Of a stretch of DNA of 32,149 nt, positions 4,773 through 19,368 are shown in pieces. Numbering within the stretch: the stretch's first letter is position 1; every line of letters starts with the position of its first letter. Below the pieces are notes generated by a model. The model saw only the letters and a program-made list of their open reading frames with translations. It searched no databases and had not been told where the DNA came from. Origin of the DNA: Deltaproteobacteria bacterium (GTDB lineage Bacteria; Myxococcota_A; Polyangia; JAAYKL01); the NCBI GenBank assembly GCA_030595125.1, contig JAUVDV010000061.1:1-32149 (forward strand), given 5' to 3'. A program made the translations under genes and the position numbers.

Positions 4773-6053
4773 ATGAAGAAAATTTTTTTGACAGTCGCCA
4801 TTTGTCATTTCGCAGTGATGCTTTCGGCCTGCGGGGATGACGAGGGTCTTCCAGGAGATCCGGACGGAGGGGATACGGATACTTCCGATTGTTATATTGG
4901 AGATATTACAGTTGAGAACGAGGCAGACATAGAATTCCTGAAGCCCTACCCTTGCATCACAGGCAGTCTTACCGTTGAAGAAACAGCGCTGCAAAATATC
5001 GAGTTGCCCAACCTGGAATGGGTGGGCGGAGAACTTGATATTGGGCACAACGTATCCCTGACAAGTCTTTCGGGACTTGGAAACCTCACTTCCGTGGGAG
5101 AGGACCTGGGAATATGGGAGAATACCGCTCTTTCCAGCCTGGCCGGTTTAGACGCCCTGACATCCGTGGGTGGGGGTCTAAAAGTATCGCGTGCTAACTC
5201 AATCACGGATCTCACGGGCTTGGGCGCCCTCACCTCGGTGGGCAAGATCTTGTCTATTTCCTGCAACGACGCTCTCACCTCTCTTGCCGGTCTGGACAAC
5301 CTTTCTTCGGTGGACCATTTGAGAATCACATACAACTTCGCCCTCACCAGTCTCGACGGCCTGTGCACACCTACTTCGTTGACCGGTCTGCGATTAGAGG
5401 GCAACCCCGTCCTCGCTGACCTTGAAGGCCTCAGCGCCCTCACCTCAGTGGAGAACTACGTATCGATCCTTGACAACGACGCCCTGACGAACCTGAACGG
5501 TCTGGAAAACATCACCTCATTGGGCGCCATCACCATATCGGACAATGACGGCCTCACCGATCTTGACGGATTCCCCACCATTACTTCGATAGCGACCCTG
5601 GAAATAGGAGGCAACCTCTCCCTTACTGACCTTGACGAATTGAACGCCCTTACCCTTGTGAGCGGCGACTTGCGTATCGCAAACACCTCCCTCACCGATA
5701 TCACCGGCCTGAGCAACATCACATCGGTAGGAGGCGTAAGTGTGCCCGACGGGCCCGACGGTATGTTGGATATTTATGGAAATACCGCACTGACCAATCT
5801 TGACGGTTTAAACAACATCACTCTTGCAGGCGGGCGCCTGCTTATCACAGAAAACGCCACCCTCACTACCCTCACCGGCCTGAGCGGTCTCACAACAGTG
5901 GACGAGGACTTCTCGATTTACACCAACCCCGCACTGCCGTACTGCGAGGCGTGCAATCTACTGGATCAACTCACCGACGCACCCAATGAGATATTTGCAT
6001 ACGACAACTTTCCCGACACGTGCTGGGACGGCACCGATCTGGTCTGTCCGTAA
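4773..6053 (+). CDS. lipoprotein with leucine-rich-repeat-like solenoid
   Basis: A 426-residue lipoprotein: signal peptide ending in MLSAC (C20), a short acidic linker (DDEGLPGDPDGGDTDTSD), then about eleven repeats of 22-25 residues (about 70-390) with the pattern N-x-x-LTSL-x-GL-x-x-LTSVGG-x-L-x-I. The pattern is that of the receptor-L/leucine-rich-repeat class of bacterial surface proteins and predicts a curved solenoid. A C-terminal cap has CEAC and two later Cys (about 394-426), probably disulfide-bonded. The AGGAGG at 4762 fixes the start. Probable ligand- or surface-binding role; the ligand is unknown. It ends 21 bases before the small zinc finger gene. Confidence 0.85.
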   Translation: MKKIFLTVAICHFAVMLSACGDDEGLPGDPDGGDTDTSDCYIGDITVENEADIEFLKPYPCITGSLTVEETALQNIELPNLEWVGGELDIGHNVSLTSLSGLGNLTSVGEDLGIWENTALSSLAGLDALTSVGGGLKVSRANSITDLTGLGALTSVGKILSISCNDALTSLAGLDNLSSVDHLRITYNFALTSLDGLCTPTSLTGLRLEGNPVLADLEGLSALTSVENYVSILDNDALTNLNGLENITSLGAITISDNDGLTDLDGFPTITSIATLEIGGNLSLTDLDELNALTLVSGDLRIANTSLTDITGLSNITSVGGVSVPDGPDGMLDIYGNTALTNLDGLNNITLAGGRLLITENATLTTLTGLSGLTTVDEDFSIYTNPALPYCEACNLLDQLTDAPNEIFAYDNFPDTCWDGTDLVCP

Positions 6054-8119: not shown

Positions 8120-10564
8120 TCAAGGGATTCCGGCTATCCTTGACAGGGCCCGCTCGTATCGAGGGGCGTTGCTCTCGTCCGGATCGTCCGGACGCAGTCT
8201 CGACAGGGGCCCGACGGCCCGCCTGTCGCCGATCTGCCCGAGAGCCTCTATTGCCGCCCAGCGTGACTGCTTGACGTCGAGGAGATCGATCAGCCCCGGC
8301 ACTGCCCTCGAATCCTCCAGCACTCCCAGTGATAGCGCCGATTCCACCCTGATCGCCGGATCGTTCGACTTCAGGGCGGCTAGAAGGGGCCTCAAAGCCC
8401 CGGGATCCTCCAATCTTCCAAGGGCGATTGCGCTCCAGCGACCGAGGTCGGTTTTCTTGCCTGAAAAAGCGTCCACAAGCCCGACGGGACACGTCTCTTC
8501 GAGAAGGGTCGAACCGACACATGCCCAGGCCGCAACCTCCGGGATCAGGGAATCGTGCAAATCCTCGAAGTCGCTTTTCAGATCCGCGTTTCGAAACATC
8601 GCCAGAAGACGGGCTGCCTCCGGCGCCCTGTTCGACGTCTTTGAGCGCGCCGTTTTCAGCAGATCGTCCGCCGCATCCTGTCTCCCGAGCCTTCCCAGCG
8701 CAATAGCCCTCGGCACAGCCGAAGACACCCTGTTCATCACTTCTCGGTCCCAGCGTTCCAGCGCGGCGAACAGCCTCGCCGCCTCCATGGGCTTCCTGCC
8801 CGCGAGGTTTCGGGTCTCCTCCGGATCGCGCCCCAGATCGTAGAGCGCGCACGGACCCTCTGGCCAGCCGTTGCAGATGAGCTTGCGCTTCCTCACGACG
8901 ACCGCCCGCTTGTCGCGAATCGATGTGAACACGGGCCCTCCTGCAAGGTTGCCGGACATCAGGCCACGCCCCTGCGCCCCTGCCCGCCCGAGCACCAGAT
9001 CCTCGAGGGTCTCGCCAAGATCCACGTTTGAGACCGGCGCCGTGATTCGCCGCAGCTCACCGCCGGGAACCCTGACGATCATGGGGACCCTGGTCTGCTC
9101 CTCGAAGAGATCCGTCGAGTGGTACAACCTCCCGTGCTCCCCAAAGGCCTCTCCGTGATCGGCGGTCAACGCGATCACCGGATCGTCAAGCCGCTCCTTC
9201 AGGTGTGGAAGCAGCTCCCCGATAACTTTGTCAACGTGGGCGATCTCCGCGTCGTAGCAATCCACCGGATCTTTCCCGAACGGCTCGCCGTGGCAGTCGT
9301 ACGGCAGATGGGGATCGTAGAAATGAACCCAGAGAAAGACCGGCCTTCCATCCATTTCCTTCAGAGCTCCGCGCACCATGCCCAAGTCGGCGCGCGCCTC
9401 CATCGTCAGGATCTCCACCTCCTGGAAACCGAACCTGCTTTCCTCCACCCGGCCCATCAGGTCGGGCCCGGCAGAGAAGACCTTGGGGGGATACAGCCCG
9501 ATGGTTCTGTATCCGGCGGCGCCCAGCCTGTCAGCAATCGTCGACGGCAGGTGAGCTCCCGTGCGCAGGATCGCCTCCATGGGCTCCCCGGCCAAAATGG
9601 CCGGGATCGAGAACGAGCTCGCCGGGGAAGACGAGTAAGCCCGCTCGAATACGACCGCCCCGGCCGCGAGGGCGTCTATATTGGGCGAGACTACCCTCTT
9701 GTATCCGGCAAAACCCAGATGATCGGCCCGCAACGCATCGATGGAGATCAGCACAACGGAGCGACCGGTGACGTCCGGCAGATCCAACCCGGCAACACCG
9801 GCGTCGACCCCGGCATCGGCATCGCCGTCGGCATCGAGAGATTCCACTGATATCCGGGGGACTGTTTCCACGCGCCCCGCGCGCGACAGGTACGACGCTA
9901 TCAACCCGCGATCCGCCGCATCGAATGAATCCTCTATGCCGACAGGAAAAATAAAAGCTGCGATGGAACAGCAAATAACCGCCGTCACGATCGGTTTCAC
10001 CAGTTCCGGACGAACGCGGCCGACGATGGGAAAGAAGGTCAGCGTGAGCGCCGTCCATGAAAGGAAAGAGGCCCACAAGGCCAGGGGCATATGAAGATCG
10101 CCAAGAGCGCGGCCGAGATAGAACAGAAGCCCGGTCACGGGAATCGCGGCGATCTGTACGATCAATGGTTGACGAGATCTCGCCAGCCGACATCTCAGCA
10201 ACATGGTTGCAAAGAACACCGCAATCATGATCGCGGCGCCGATGCCGATGATCAGAGACTCGGGAAGAGCGCCCCTCAGTGTCGCCGTGCCCGAAAGGTG
10301 GAGTCCGGCGCAGACGGACCCGGGGAGCGCGAGAACGACGGACGCCGACAGGCTAAAAAAACGGTTTCGCAGATGCAGACGTTCCCAGGCCCACAGAATG
10401 ACGCCGAGCAGAACTCCCAGGCCCACGCCGCGTCCCGCGAGCAGAACACATCCCACAGGCCCGCACCCGCATGCGATCCCATCAGCAACCGAGATGAAAC
10501 CGGCCGCCATCCCCCCCGCGACGGGGAGGGTCAAAAAATGTTTCTGCTTGTTCACGAGCGCCAT
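8120..10564 (-). CDS. membrane sulfatase-fold protein with C-terminal HEAT repeats
   Basis: An 814-residue protein. Residues about 10-210 contain five or six hydrophobic membrane segments, followed by an acidic linker (242-257, Asp-Ala-Gly type). Residues about 268-560 are an alkaline-phosphatase/sulfatase fold: metal ligand region ISIDALRADHLG (D276) and ALTADHGEAFGEHG are clear. The canonical formylglycine motif C/S-x-P-x-R is absent; the matching position reads SSPASSFSIPA (312-322), so a Ser may be the nucleophile as in phosphoglycerol or phosphoethanolamine transferases. Residues about 690-810 are PBS-lyase/HEAT repeats. It follows the M24 gene by 28 bases and probably modifies envelope glycans or lipids together with the glycosyltransferase upstream. 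Substrate unknown. Confidence 0.82.
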   Translation of the reverse strand: MALVNKQKHFLTLPVAGGMAAGFISVADGIACGCGPVGCVLLAGRGVGLGVLLGVILWAWERLHLRNRFFSLSASVVLALPGSVCAGLHLSGTATLRGALPESLIIGIGAAIMIAVFFATMLLRCRLARSRQPLIVQIAAIPVTGLLFYLGRALGDLHMPLALWASFLSWTALTLTFFPIVGRVRPELVKPIVTAVICCSIAAFIFPVGIEDSFDAADRGLIASYLSRAGRVETVPRISVESLDADGDADAGVDAGVAGLDLPDVTGRSVVLISIDALRADHLGFAGYKRVVSPNIDALAAGAVVFERAYSSSPASSFSIPAILAGEPMEAILRTGAHLPSTIADRLGAAGYRTIGLYPPKVFSAGPDLMGRVEESRFGFQEVEILTMEARADLGMVRGALKEMDGRPVFLWVHFYDPHLPYDCHGEPFGKDPVDCYDAEIAHVDKVIGELLPHLKERLDDPVIALTADHGEAFGEHGRLYHSTDLFEEQTRVPMIVRVPGGELRRITAPVSNVDLGETLEDLVLGRAGAQGRGLMSGNLAGGPVFTSIRDKRAVVVRKRKLICNGWPEGPCALYDLGRDPEETRNLAGRKPMEAARLFAALERWDREVMNRVSSAVPRAIALGRLGRQDAADDLLKTARSKTSNRAPEAARLLAMFRNADLKSDFEDLHDSLIPEVAAWACVGSTLLEETCPVGLVDAFSGKKTDLGRWSAIALGRLEDPGALRPLLAALKSNDPAIRVESALSLGVLEDSRAVPGLIDLLDVKQSRWAAIEALGQIGDRRAVGPLSRLRPDDPDESNAPRYERALSRIAGIP

Positions 10565-11663: not shown

Positions 11664-13571
11664 TTAGCGCACCTCCAGCCAGTCGAACATCACCGCGAGC
11701 TTCCTGGAATCACTTGAGAACCCCAGCTCCTTGGGTGAAACCGCATAGGCGAACTCGAAGCTCAGAACACTCTTCTCTCGTGCCTGCGCCGCCGGTACTT
11801 CAAACGTGTACACGCGGGGTTCGGGATCCAACTCCAATCGAGCCAGGCGTACACCGTTGACCCGGACGGTGATGGTCTGCGGCAGCGCGTTACCGGGGAT
11901 GATCATCGGAGCAGCCCTGAACCTCACCAGGTTATCGCGTCCGGGTTTGAGACCATGTGAGATTTCCGCGCGTTTTCCGATTGCCCAGACCCAGGTTGAG
12001 TCACCCTCCCCCTCGTTATCGCCCCATCCCGAAACAAAATGCTCTCGCGCCAGAGGCGATCCGAAATCAATCGTCGCCATTACCCGATGGTACCTGGAAA
12101 GATCGATACCCCGGTATTGCGGACCGACCGCGAAGAGGCGCAAGGGATACCTCGAGAGTCGGGCAACTTCCTCGGTTCGGTAGTTCGACATGATCACGCG
12201 CATGGCAGCGTCCCCTTCGAGATCCCGGGGATTGACTATCATGAACACCGGTCTCTCGTTCAAGATCCCGTGGCTGACCAGCTCCGGCGCACCTGGATGG
12301 CTCCAGGAAAAAGATTCGATATCGCCGTACAACCTCAAGGGACCGGTGAAGTTGAGGGCTCCCACCAGGCTATTCCCAGGTAGTCTCTTGCTCATCTCCA
12401 GGGTGTCCAGGTAGTAGCTCTCATCAAAATCTTTACGGTAGACACCCTCGTTGTGTGAGAACCGAGCCATGCAACACACGGTGACTACAAACGCGACCGC
12501 CGCAATCACATACATGGAGCGTATACCCCGTGGCCACTTCGCAAGCGCCCTCCCGCCGACGAGCCCGATGCCGTCTCCCGCAAGCAATAAGATCGCCGGG
12601 TATGCGGGCAACAGGAATCGCACCTCCCACCAGGCCTCGAGCGAAGGCTCCCAGGTGGACAAGAACACGACAAACGAAAAGAGCCACAGGAGCAACGGGC
12701 CATTCCTGCGAAACCCAACGACCGCCGCATAGGCTGCGGGTATCAGAAGCGGCCAGAGCATCGCCAGAGTGATGCGACCGAAAAAAGAGAGCTTGGCCGC
12801 CAGATCGCCGGGACCAATCTCGTGGATGTTGATCCCGTACGGAACGGCCCATGGCGCGCCGAACTGAACGTAGATGTATACGGCCAGGCAGGTGACCGCC
12901 GCCGCAAACCACAAGACGAGCGAACGCAGCTTGCCACGCTTGCGAGCCGACCACATCAACGCGGGAAGAAAAAGCACGTTGGTGGGTCTCACGAGGAGGG
13001 AGAGCCCGAGTAGAACTCCCGAGAGTCTCTCCCTTCCCCTGGATAGCAATACATAGGACAGCAAGATGAAAACGGTCGCAGGCATGTCGCTCATCACCTG
13101 GGTAGAACCCCAGGTTACAATGGGTGTCGCGGCCCACAACACCGAGACGGCCAGCGCCGTAGTGCGACCACCGGATCCGGGGGTCCCGGCGAGATATATC
13201 AACACGACGCTCGCCGCGCCGAGCACCGGCGTGCAATAGAACTCCAATCCAACCGTGCCGAACAGGGCCATGATCGCAGAAAAACCCGGCGGAAATATGG
13301 AAGCCACCTGGCCATCAACCAGCGCGTGACACAGGGGCACCAGCGCGGGGTAGTCCATAGGGCTCAACGCCAACTCGAGACCCGAATCCAGACCGAGAAA
13401 ACCACGCGCACAGGACAGGTAGGCAAAGGGATCGCAACCTCCTACGTACCGGGATCTGAAGTGGGCCCAGAGAAGCATCGACAGGAAGGCCGCGCAAAGC
13501 GCGCATGCATTCTGCCAGACTTTCAACCACCGAACGGCAGCCTCGAAAGTTTGTCCGGTCCACTTCTTCAT
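11664..13571 (-). CDS. integral membrane glycosyltransferase (GT39/PMT-like)
   Basis: A 635-residue protein with roughly ten hydrophobic segments over residues 20-385. The first large outer loop has an Asp in a GGCDPFAYL context (D47), the position of the catalytic Asp of ArnT/dolichyl-phosphate-mannose type transferases (GT-C fold). Residues about 400-635 form a non-membrane beta-rich domain with the look of a carbohydrate-binding jelly roll (TITVRVNGVRLARLEL region). It likely transfers a sugar from a polyprenyl phosphate to an envelope acceptor in the periplasm. It leads a minus-strand trio with the M24 peptidase and the sulfatase-fold protein. It faces the PNGase F-like gene across about 100 bases. 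Confidence 0.8.
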   Translation of the reverse strand: MKKWTGQTFEAAVRWLKVWQNACALCAAFLSMLLWAHFRSRYVGGCDPFAYLSCARGFLGLDSGLELALSPMDYPALVPLCHALVDGQVASIFPPGFSAIMALFGTVGLEFYCTPVLGAASVVLIYLAGTPGSGGRTTALAVSVLWAATPIVTWGSTQVMSDMPATVFILLSYVLLSRGRERLSGVLLGLSLLVRPTNVLFLPALMWSARKRGKLRSLVLWFAAAVTCLAVYIYVQFGAPWAVPYGINIHEIGPGDLAAKLSFFGRITLAMLWPLLIPAAYAAVVGFRRNGPLLLWLFSFVVFLSTWEPSLEAWWEVRFLLPAYPAILLLAGDGIGLVGGRALAKWPRGIRSMYVIAAVAFVVTVCCMARFSHNEGVYRKDFDESYYLDTLEMSKRLPGNSLVGALNFTGPLRLYGDIESFSWSHPGAPELVSHGILNERPVFMIVNPRDLEGDAAMRVIMSNYRTEEVARLSRYPLRLFAVGPQYRGIDLSRYHRVMATIDFGSPLAREHFVSGWGDNEGEGDSTWVWAIGKRAEISHGLKPGRDNLVRFRAAPMIIPGNALPQTITVRVNGVRLARLELDPEPRVYTFEVPAAQAREKSVLSFEFAYAVSPKELGFSSDSRKLAVMFDWLEVR

Positions 13572-13669
13572 GACGCCTGCTTCCCTCTACGTGAAGTGTC
13601 TGTAAACCTTTTTTACCCACACCACACAATTGCCGGTACTGTAAACTTCAAATGAGGAGGATAGAAAAG

Positions 13670-15325
13670 ATGACAATCTCTCTTACAAGGCAAGCCCAAT
13701 ATCTGCTGACACTGGCGCTCGCAGCTAGCATCCACTTCGGAGCCGGTTGCAACTCCACGAGCAACAACCAGCCCGACGGATCGGTCGACGGCGGAGCTGA
13801 CGCAGGCATAGATACCACTTGCGAGGACGGATTGCCCTCCACCCCATTCGATAGCAGCGCAACGATAACGGCCTACGACCAGCCCGCGCCCGACTTCACT
13901 GTGAACACCACCGACGGCGAGTGGACCCTGTCGGAGCACTGGACCGGCTGCGACAACTATGTATTCGTAATGTACAATTCGGGCTACGGGACCGGCGCCG
14001 ACCAGCTCTGGGCGTCGAGCGTCGCCGAGATCATCGACGACAGCGCCCCCAACACCCACTACTTCTTCGTCACCCTGGAGGCCGGACTCGCTACCGAGGA
14101 TCGGGAGGCGCGAGTGCTCGAAGTTTGCGACAAGATTCAGGCCCACCTGGAAACCACCGATCAGGCCACCAGAGACCACTGGGCCGATCGGATGCACTAC
14201 GTTACCGACTTCGGCCGCGACATCCCGGTGGTGGACGGCGTGCTGGATGTATCCCCGGGCGAGGTGCACTTCACCATCGATCGCAAGCAGCTGGTGCGAG
14301 AAGGTCACAACACCTCCTACTTCACCGGATCCTCATGGGTGCCCCAGTTCGGCAATACGCGCTACTGGGCCCGCTACTACAACGCCCAGTACTTGCTCGA
14401 CGAGCAGCTCGAGGAACAGGAGATGAACGAAGATGTACTGGTGCATCGAGTGACTGACAGGGAAGACATCGCGGGCAGCGAACCCTTCAACTGGACCCTC
14501 CCGAACGCCGCCACCATCGCAGGGTACGAGAAACTCGAAATCGACATGCACGTGGACTGCCCCGGAGCGGGACACCCCTACGGCTCAACCTGCGGCGAGT
14601 GGGACACCGTGGGCAGCCTGTGGCTGTGCGCCGACAATGATTGCACCGCCGAGACCCGGCGCAGGATAGTGAAGTGGATAACCCCATACAGTTCACCGGG
14701 ACGCTGGGTAATCGACATCACACCGGAGCTGGTGCATCTGGACGCGGGCGGAGAGCTGCGCTTCATGGTGCAACACGGAGACAACACCGTCGGCCCGTAC
14801 ACCTACAAATACACGGTCGATTTCCGATTCATCAAGGCAGAGGACGGCCTGCGGCCCTTCGCCATCGAGCCCATGATCCCCATGGCCAATTACCCGTTCG
14901 CCGACATGGCCGACGCCTTCGACCCATTCGTCATCACGCCCCCATCGGGGACCCAGAAGGTAGAGCTGTACGCCCGAATCTCCGGTCACGGAGCCGTGAC
15001 CCCTAGCGGCTGTGCCGAGTTCTGCACCTTCGAGCACACCTTCGACGTCAACAGCACCGAACACCAGCACGTCTACCTGATGGAGAACGAAAACCGTTGC
15101 GCGCAGTGGGTGGAGCTTGGCGTAACCCCTAACCAGGGAGGTACCTGGCACTTTGACCGTTCCTCGTGGTGCCCCGGATGGACAATTGAGGAGTGGCGGG
15201 AGGATCTCACGGAGAGCTTTGATCTCACCGGCGCCAACACAGTCAATCACATCCCCACGTACCAGGGGGGGGACCCTCCGGGCGGCAATATGGACGCCCG
15301 CGTGGAGATCGTCTTCTACCTCTGA
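13670..15325 (+). CDS. PNGase F-like lipoprotein with thioredoxin-like N-terminal region
   Basis: A 551-residue lipoprotein: signal peptide ending in GAGC (C27), then a Gly/Asp/Ala linker. Residues about 70-200 resemble a thioredoxin/peroxiredoxin fold (PAPDFTVNTTDGEWTLSEHW) but have no CxxC. Residues about 255-551 match the two beta-domains of peptide-N-glycosidase F. The catalytic Asp60 and Glu206 of that enzyme correspond to D312 (CGEWD, four residues after C308, as D60 follows C56) and E450 (CAEFC). The pairs C297/C308, C448/C452 and C477/C501 mirror its three disulfides. It probably removes N-linked glycans from glycoproteins at the cell surface. I chose the ATG at 13670 because AGGAGG at 13655-13660 lies at a good distance; an in-frame ATG at 13652 overlaps that ribosome site. 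Confidence 0.85.
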   Translation: MTISLTRQAQYLLTLALAASIHFGAGCNSTSNNQPDGSVDGGADAGIDTTCEDGLPSTPFDSSATITAYDQPAPDFTVNTTDGEWTLSEHWTGCDNYVFVMYNSGYGTGADQLWASSVAEIIDDSAPNTHYFFVTLEAGLATEDREARVLEVCDKIQAHLETTDQATRDHWADRMHYVTDFGRDIPVVDGVLDVSPGEVHFTIDRKQLVREGHNTSYFTGSSWVPQFGNTRYWARYYNAQYLLDEQLEEQEMNEDVLVHRVTDREDIAGSEPFNWTLPNAATIAGYEKLEIDMHVDCPGAGHPYGSTCGEWDTVGSLWLCADNDCTAETRRRIVKWITPYSSPGRWVIDITPELVHLDAGGELRFMVQHGDNTVGPYTYKYTVDFRFIKAEDGLRPFAIEPMIPMANYPFADMADAFDPFVITPPSGTQKVELYARISGHGAVTPSGCAEFCTFEHTFDVNSTEHQHVYLMENENRCAQWVELGVTPNQGGTWHFDRSSWCPGWTIEEWREDLTESFDLTGANTVNHIPTYQGGDPPGGNMDARVEIVFYL

Positions 15326-18666: not shown

Positions 18667-19368
18667 TTAAAGCAAGTCGAACCAGTCCTCGAGGTAACCG
18701 TAGTACTGGACTTCGGCGTCCGTGGTGGAGCGCGCCATCACGCAGCTGCTGACGTTGCCCTCAATGGTGTAGATGACGATCTCGTCGGTGGAAAGGCTGG
18801 CCACCATTCCGTAGTGCTGGTACGTGTATTTTACCAGGTCGCCCGGGGCCGGGCGCCAGTCGGGGGGCATGGATCCCGGGTACATCTGGGGCAGGGATAT
18901 CGGTGTCGGCAGCCCGGCGTTGGCCTGCTCGTAGACCCAAGCCACAAAGTCGTAACACCATAACCCCGGCTGGTACTGCATGTACGGTCGAACGTCGACC
19001 CCCTCACACATACCGATCTCCGCCGTGGCGATATCTACCAGCATCGAACGGATGTATTCCTCCTCGGTGCATTCATCGTAGGGATCGCCCGCAAACTCAT
19101 CTTCGCAGTAACACGTGCCATCCTCGCAGAATGCGTTTTCGCCGCAGACGACCTCCTCACACAAATCGTCGGCATCGGTGTCCGTATCGGTGTCCGTGTC
19201 GGTATCGGAATCGCTGTCCGAATCGGAATCGCTGTCCGAATCGCTGTCCGAGTCGCCTCCGTATACATAACTGTCGTCTTCCGAATCGTCACAGCCCAGG
19301 ATCGGCAGCCCGAGCATGGCGAACGACAGCAGCAGCGCTATGCGGTTTTGTCTTGTCAGGATCGTCAT
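18667..19368 (-). CDS. lipoprotein with Asp-Ser linker, EGF-like module and NlpC/P60-CHAP-like peptidase
   Basis: A 233-residue lipoprotein: signal peptide with lipobox PILGC (C26), an uninterrupted Asp-Ser then Asp-Thr run (39-67), a six-Cys EGF-like knot (70-100), then a papain-like domain (about 104-233). The latter shows a Cys nucleophile at C138 (WCYDFVAWVYEQA), PGDLVKY before H185 (QHYGMV) and an EGN at 203-205, the order of CHAP/NlpC-P60 amidases. It may cleave peptidoglycan peptides or amides from the outer membrane face. AGGAG precedes the ATG. The gene lies 13 bases upstream of the ferritin-like gene, so the two may be cotranscribed, though no functional link is obvious. Confidence 0.78.
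   Translation of the reverse strand: MTILTRQNRIALLLSFAMLGLPILGCDDSEDDSYVYGGDSDSDSDSDSDSDSDSDTDTDTDTDTDADDLCEEVVCGENAFCEDGTCYCEDEFAGDPYDECTEEEYIRSMLVDIATAEIGMCEGVDVRPYMQYQPGLWCYDFVAWVYEQANAGLPTPISLPQMYPGSMPPDWRPAPGDLVKYTYQHYGMVASLSTDEIVIYTIEGNVSSCVMARSTTDAEVQYYGYLEDWFDLL
19168..19254 (-). repeat. Asp-Ser/Asp-Thr coding repeat
   Basis: Degenerate 6-base GAY-(TCN or ACN) units in the CHAP-like lipoprotein gene, coding residues 39-67. The protein run is perfect while synonymous bases vary. Confidence 0.85.

Follow-up and report, generated by a model that had tools for sequence, protein, structure and literature searches.

What would a bacterium do with a protein that joins a thioredoxin-like domain to a relative of PNGase F, and is such a protein likely to release N-glycans? 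The question is posed by the fusion gene P0001, which lies at 13670..15325 on the + strand (as do all features of the gene given below) of the window, by which we mean the whole 32,149-nucleotide stretch of deltaproteobacterial DNA that was analysed (contig JAUVDV010000061.1); its open reading frame is intact, and the 551-residue product matches the Pfam domain PF09113 with an E value of 4.7e-17. Our preferred answer, to which we would give a probability of roughly 0.7, is that it encodes an Ngly2-type lipoprotein PNGase that has no PA domain, would hydrolyse through Asp312 and Glu450, would keep its thioredoxin-like domain for something other than redox chemistry, and would strip foreign glycoproteins so that they can be proteolysed. 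Activity, surface location, dimerisation, substrate source and purpose are the parts of this answer that we infer.

An alternative in-frame ATG lies at 13652, 5′ of 13670; in L026, a 93%-identical gene, the open frame begins just one codon before the ATG equivalent to 13670, which makes 13670 the likelier start. The protein then opens with a predicted signal peptide ending in Cys27 (13670..13750, placed by alignment column 27), the probable lipid-attachment residue. Column 27 holds Cys in 71 of the 81 aligned rows and a gap in the remaining 10 (the starts of the 80 homologues were chosen by rule, which leaves gaps and short values in the N-terminal columns), and a loose lipobox pattern matches 47 rows. 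Because of this column, and despite the window's own FGAGC, which we take to be a non-canonical lipobox, the protein is probably a membrane-anchored lipoprotein.

These 81 rows, on which much of what follows depends, are the window protein and the best 80 of 127 loci; the loci were picked out for their similarity to fusions by means of two peptide patterns derived from eight of them, so that the conservation reported here is partly a product of selection; Asp312, His440, Glu450 and the six disulfide cysteines all lie outside both search patterns. A structure model was built from 73 sequences (alignment A2), the window protein and 72 of the 80 loci; it has a mean pLDDT of 88 and a pTM of 0.85, and in it a thioredoxin-like domain is followed by a helix (residues 227-252, 14348..14425) and then by a mostly beta domain. 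Ngly2 is likewise helical between the same two domains.

The beta domain, residues 253-551 (14426..15322), is recognised as a PNGase F-type catalytic domain by structure, by Pfam and by matches in the PDB. The preliminary description had proposed superposition of a predicted structure on PNGase F, and the model does superpose on 1pnf with a Z score of 24.1 (271 residues, 3.1 Å). PF09113, the C-terminal Pfam domain, scores 62.5 bits against a cut-off of 25; PF09112, the N-terminal half, gives no match to the window protein at E values up to 1 and none in the organism's own genome, a profile search in which the control genomes matched nowhere either, and the equivalent half of the domain is covered by PDB sequence and structure matches. 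With the single protein as query, the best PDB match is Ngly2 (9lwg, E 1.2e-38), followed by PNGase F (1pnf, 2e-8), and with profile A1 the two values become 4.1e-82 and 6.5e-18.

Does this domain have what it needs for catalysis? Asp312 aligns with Asp60 of PNGase F and Asp421 of Ngly2, and Glu450 (15017..15019) with Glu206 and Glu555, while Cys297, Cys308, Cys448, Cys452, Cys477 and Cys501 align with Cys51, Cys56, Cys204, Cys208, Cys231 and Cys252 of PNGase F (counted along the printed rows, with the pairing of Cys297 and Cys51 visible in the 3pms alignment row alone). Trp311, both acids, His440 and all six cysteines are each present in 81 of 81 rows, in agreement with the earlier claims that the catalytic pair and the disulfide pattern of PNGase F are kept. 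The cysteines of PNGase F form three disulfides, to which the window protein would have three putative counterparts. Glu118 of PNGase F, which we take to contribute to activity, pairs with Gln368, and in the profile alignment the same position reads as Ala in the active Ngly2. Around the acids, Trp311-Asp312-Thr313 (14600..14608) places Thr where PNGase F has Arg61 and Ngly2 has His422, and His440 (14987..14989) corresponds by alignment to His546 of Ngly2 and Trp191 of PNGase F. The wording of PMC12753239 pairs Trp59/Arg61 of PNGase F with His422/His546 and Trp191 with Trp420; our alignments give instead Trp59 with Trp420, Arg61 with His422 and Trp191 with His546, and this is the pairing adopted here. 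The same source reports that D421A and E555A each abolish Ngly2 activity. PMC12381499 describes a superfamily motif of aromatic-Asp-positive/aromatic plus a loop with His and Glu, from which PNGase F departs in that Trp replaces the loop His, and His440 with Glu450 fits that loop. Judged from these residues, the domain is likely to be active on N-glycans. A His440 that is found in every one of these 81 bacterial fusions, and that matches the usual His of PMC12381499, also argues against His546 being by itself the cause of the acid activity of Ngly2.

The other half of the fusion is a thioredoxin/peroxiredoxin-like domain (residues 63-225, 13856..14344) with neither a CxxC motif nor a PA insert, delimited by the model, structure comparison and the alignment. 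Over about residues 63-240 the model resembles many thioredoxins and peroxiredoxins (Z 8.0-9.3), and CxxC was found in 0 of 81 rows, which bears out the peroxiredoxin-like, CxxC-free region of the preliminary description. Its label 'Cys-less' has to go, since three cysteines precede the catalytic domain: Cys51 (13820..13822), Cys94 (13949..13951; Cys in 76 of 81 rows) and Cys153. In 68 of 81 rows Cys51 and Cys94 are both present, which suggests that they probably form a structural disulfide. A single Cys lies between positions 52 and 245 in 73 rows, none in five and two in three, and at no position from 96 to 111 is Cys among the three commonest residues. A redox-active thioredoxin or peroxiredoxin is ruled out by the absence of CxxC from all 81 rows and of a conserved peroxidatic Cys. 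By analogy with Ngly2, the domain would probably act as a scaffold or dimerisation module; the link between the two thioredoxin-like domains rests on structure, for this stretch compared with Ngly2 by sequence scores a non-significant 4.6 bits.

It is to Ngly2 that the whole protein is most similar. The closest solved structure is that of this recently described zebrafish egg enzyme, an acid PNGase (9lwg, a chain of 612 residues), on which model residues 63-551 superpose with a Z score of 34.4 (453 residues, 2.9 Å, 25% identity), spanning both the thioredoxin-like and the PNGase domains. The preliminary description held the fusion's N-terminal region without CxxC to be unusual, a view that gives way to the observation that a thioredoxin-like domain without CxxC, a linker helix and a PNGase F domain are also the layout of Ngly2 in PMC12753239, and that 81 proteins have it in our similarity-chosen set. 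The catalytic acids correspond, as does the loop His; the differences are that Ngly2 has His422 where the window protein has Thr313, that it is lysosomal and acid-active whereas ours is a probable bacterial lipoprotein, and that a PA domain (186-318) is inserted in its thioredoxin domain (PMC12753239). An insert of this kind was sought in all 81 rows, in which the stretch 60-256 spans 163-205 residues (196 in the window protein) and the stretch 176-200 spans 23-34, and again in ten further long homologues selected by inspection (L108-L117), whose largest thioredoxin insert is 10 residues (L114); no PA insert was found in either set. In the catalytic domain, all ten have extra segments of 21-54 residues following window positions 320 and 328, and several of these segments are rich in Cys. 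Judged from sequence and model together, then, the window protein is a well-conserved Ngly2-type PNGase without the PA domain. The Ngly2 authors tie the PA lid to a preference for unconstrained peptides (PMC12753239); with no such lid the active site would be more open than in Ngly2, and the enzyme may be able to take constrained or folded substrates.

How does this relate to the other known enzymes? PNGase F itself (Elizabethkingia, 1pnf) shares the catalytic fold, Asp60/Glu206 and the six disulfide cysteines, but it has no thioredoxin domain, differs at Trp191 (His440 here) and Arg61 (Thr313 here), and falls on the opposite side of a 100/100 split in a 99-row tree of catalytic domains. That split sets PNGase F and nine single-domain enzymes, taken from the organism's own and related genomes, against the thioredoxin fusions and Ngly2; the root is arbitrary, Ngly2 is the sole animal sequence, both Ngly2 (1.31) and PNGase F (2.43) sit on long branches, and Ngly2 is placed to a side of the split only. 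Three thioredoxin-PNGase genes nested among the Myxococcota sequences, L032 and L074 (both titled Bifidobacterium breve) and L078 (Klebsiella pneumoniae), come from metagenome bins whose record titles look wrong. By the descriptions in PMC12381499, PNGaseDr (Deinococcus) and PNGaseCg (oyster) belong to the same superfamily and are likewise modular, with an alpha-helical spine, and differ in having modules that sit over the active site; they are likened to the window protein by description, and the layout of the Deinococcus enzyme is said there to resemble that of the oyster enzyme. PNGaseLl, from the deltaproteobacterium Labilithrix luteola, is a superfamily member made of a catalytic module and a flexible linker (PMC12381499), closer to a single-domain paralogue in our genome (L002) than to the window protein. 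PMC12753239 states that Ngly2 orthologues exist 'even in some bacteria', and its main text contains no word beginning 'Myxo' or 'Plesiocystis'; the literature searched, mostly at the level of listings, yielded no description of a bacterial thioredoxin-PNGase architecture. One could imagine that Ngly2 descends from a bacterial thioredoxin-PNGase lipoprotein in which the non-redox thioredoxin domain was already fused and to which animals later added the PA lid, an origin that we regard as possible but rather doubtful.

Within the fusions, the window gene belongs to a small group of its own. At residue 313, 68 of the 81 rows have Tyr, six have Thr, four have Arg and three have another residue, with Thr confined to the window protein and L026-L030, and these six form a clade on a branch of 1.08 with 100/100 support in the catalytic-domain tree. 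One of them, L029, is the homologue from Plesiocystis pacifica SIR-1, 50% identical to the window protein. The six also share a loop, HGDNTVGPYTYKYTVD (residues 369-384, 14774..14821), of the pattern GDNxVGxYTYxYT in 6/6 rows, which is expected near the second GlcNAc and in which model pLDDT falls below 50 at 371-374. Thr313 in place of Arg61 of PNGase F, together with one altered loop, means that the glycan specificity of the subfamily may differ from that of PNGase F. These features raise the tentative possibility, one compatible with our preferred answer, that the enzyme is a diverged PNGase for a different Asn-linked sugar or a decorated core, its acids kept and its sugar-contact positions remodelled; the genome has, besides the window gene, a second fusion and a single-domain PNGase. 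Set against this, Trp311, His440, both acids and the six disulfide cysteines are intact, and loops also vary among other active members of the superfamily (PMC12381499). Considering Thr313, at a position for which PMC12381499 describes a positive or aromatic residue, the branch of 1.08 and the altered loop, the window enzyme could have low activity or target a different glycan; in PMC12381499 its oyster relative PNGaseCg had little effect on the substrates assayed. Thr313 in place of the usual Tyr, Arg or His might even be read as the mark of a catalytically dead binding protein, but Asp312 and Glu450 persist in 81/81 rows, the six of the subfamily included, and we consider this very unlikely.

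If the enzyme is active, what would it act upon? PNGase F frees the glycan in an amidase step that converts Asn to Asp. On our preferred answer, Asp312 and Glu450 would likewise hydrolyse the amide that links the Asn of N-glycoproteins to the innermost GlcNAc, releasing the glycan and leaving Asp, and foreign, mainly eukaryotic, glycoproteins, which are a plausible substrate, would be stripped so that their peptide becomes accessible to proteases. N-glycosylation in the community had also been suggested in the preliminary description, and self-deglycosylation of the bacterium's own N-glycoproteins has nothing in its favour beyond the enzyme itself; STT3 (PF02516) was not found in the genome (95% complete, 203 contigs) in a search where controls matched in 4 of 14 genomes, and with respect to the STT3 route we reject this source of substrate and find such a role scarcely credible. 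Feeding, in which released glycans are catabolised as in Bacteroides-type N-glycan use, has in its favour a co-occurrence across the phylum, where GH92 occurs in 106 of 143 genomes with fusion-level matches and in 73 of 234 others (odds ratio 6.3, p 5e-16, ignoring phylogeny). GH16, a family taken as unrelated, is itself enriched (54/143 versus 41/234; odds ratio 2.9, p 2e-5), and since neither statistic is corrected for phylogeny, some of the GH92 signal reflects background; all these counts are taken to refer to the same 377 genomes because their handles and tallies agree. The association with GH92, stronger than that with GH16, also counts in favour of our preferred answer, and the family taken together fits N-glycan processing. 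For our own genome, however, none of GH92, GH20, GH38 and GH18 was detected, although control genomes matched for each, and no glycosidase was found among the neighbours scanned, so that feeding is unlikely and, as the main role here, is rejected on account of the four undetected families. GH92 is also missing from a congener (G002) in the 377-genome survey, and with both genomes lacking it we favour, for this organism, a role in exposing foreign glycoproteins to proteases over one in sugar feeding.

The neighbourhood offers little guidance. When 24 window ORFs were compared with the 80 loci, nothing was conserved beyond the near-identical L026, in which alone three neighbours were matched; four other ORFs each had matches in no more than two loci (L042, L076/L089, L094 and L100), with no set in common, and operon context was therefore rejected as a guide to function. 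An NCBIfam search gave a single uninformative match at E 0.18. Divergent to the PNGase gene is a weakly PMT/GT-like protein (11664-13571, -; matched among the 80 loci in L026 only, at 89%), and the window also encodes a long protein in which HEAT repeats come after a sulfatase-fold domain (8120-10564, -), a protein containing a long Ser-Asp/Thr-Asp repeat whose weak CHAP and EGF-like matches fall short of the cut-off (18667-19368, -), a protein of EGF repeats that matches laminin-G below threshold (1615-2730, +), an LRR-type protein with a match to the EndoS LRR model (4773-6053, +) and, at its edge, an IS110-family transposase (62-1081, +).

Are bacterial PNGases rare, as had been supposed? 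Not in this phylum, to which the organism is assigned through its named neighbours and in which such genes are fairly common: of the 377 genomes sampled, the A2 profile matches 166. PMC12381499, for its part, drew on 1897 PNGase F sequences from InterPro. A survey of the fusion in other genomes, also proposed in the preliminary description, gave 143 of the 377 with fusion-level matches, that is, the 166 minus 23 with E values above 1e-60, a cut of our own. PF09113 is present in 17 of 39 genomes, our own included, where it occurs in three genes: the window gene, L001 (C69), which is the second fusion and reads Trp-Asp-Tyr, and L002 (C181). Four divergent PF09113 matches in relatives (L005, L012, L019 and L021) do not have the CxE[FWY]C motif.

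The phylum holds many candidate glycan-release enzymes, which corrects the view that they are a bacterial rarity. The 2025 Ngly2 paper (PMC12753239), in the part available to us, treats bacterial orthologues briefly, and a PA-less form could be used to test what the thioredoxin and PA modules each do. It could also show whether the PA lid keeps constrained substrates out, and by what route the animal enzyme evolved.
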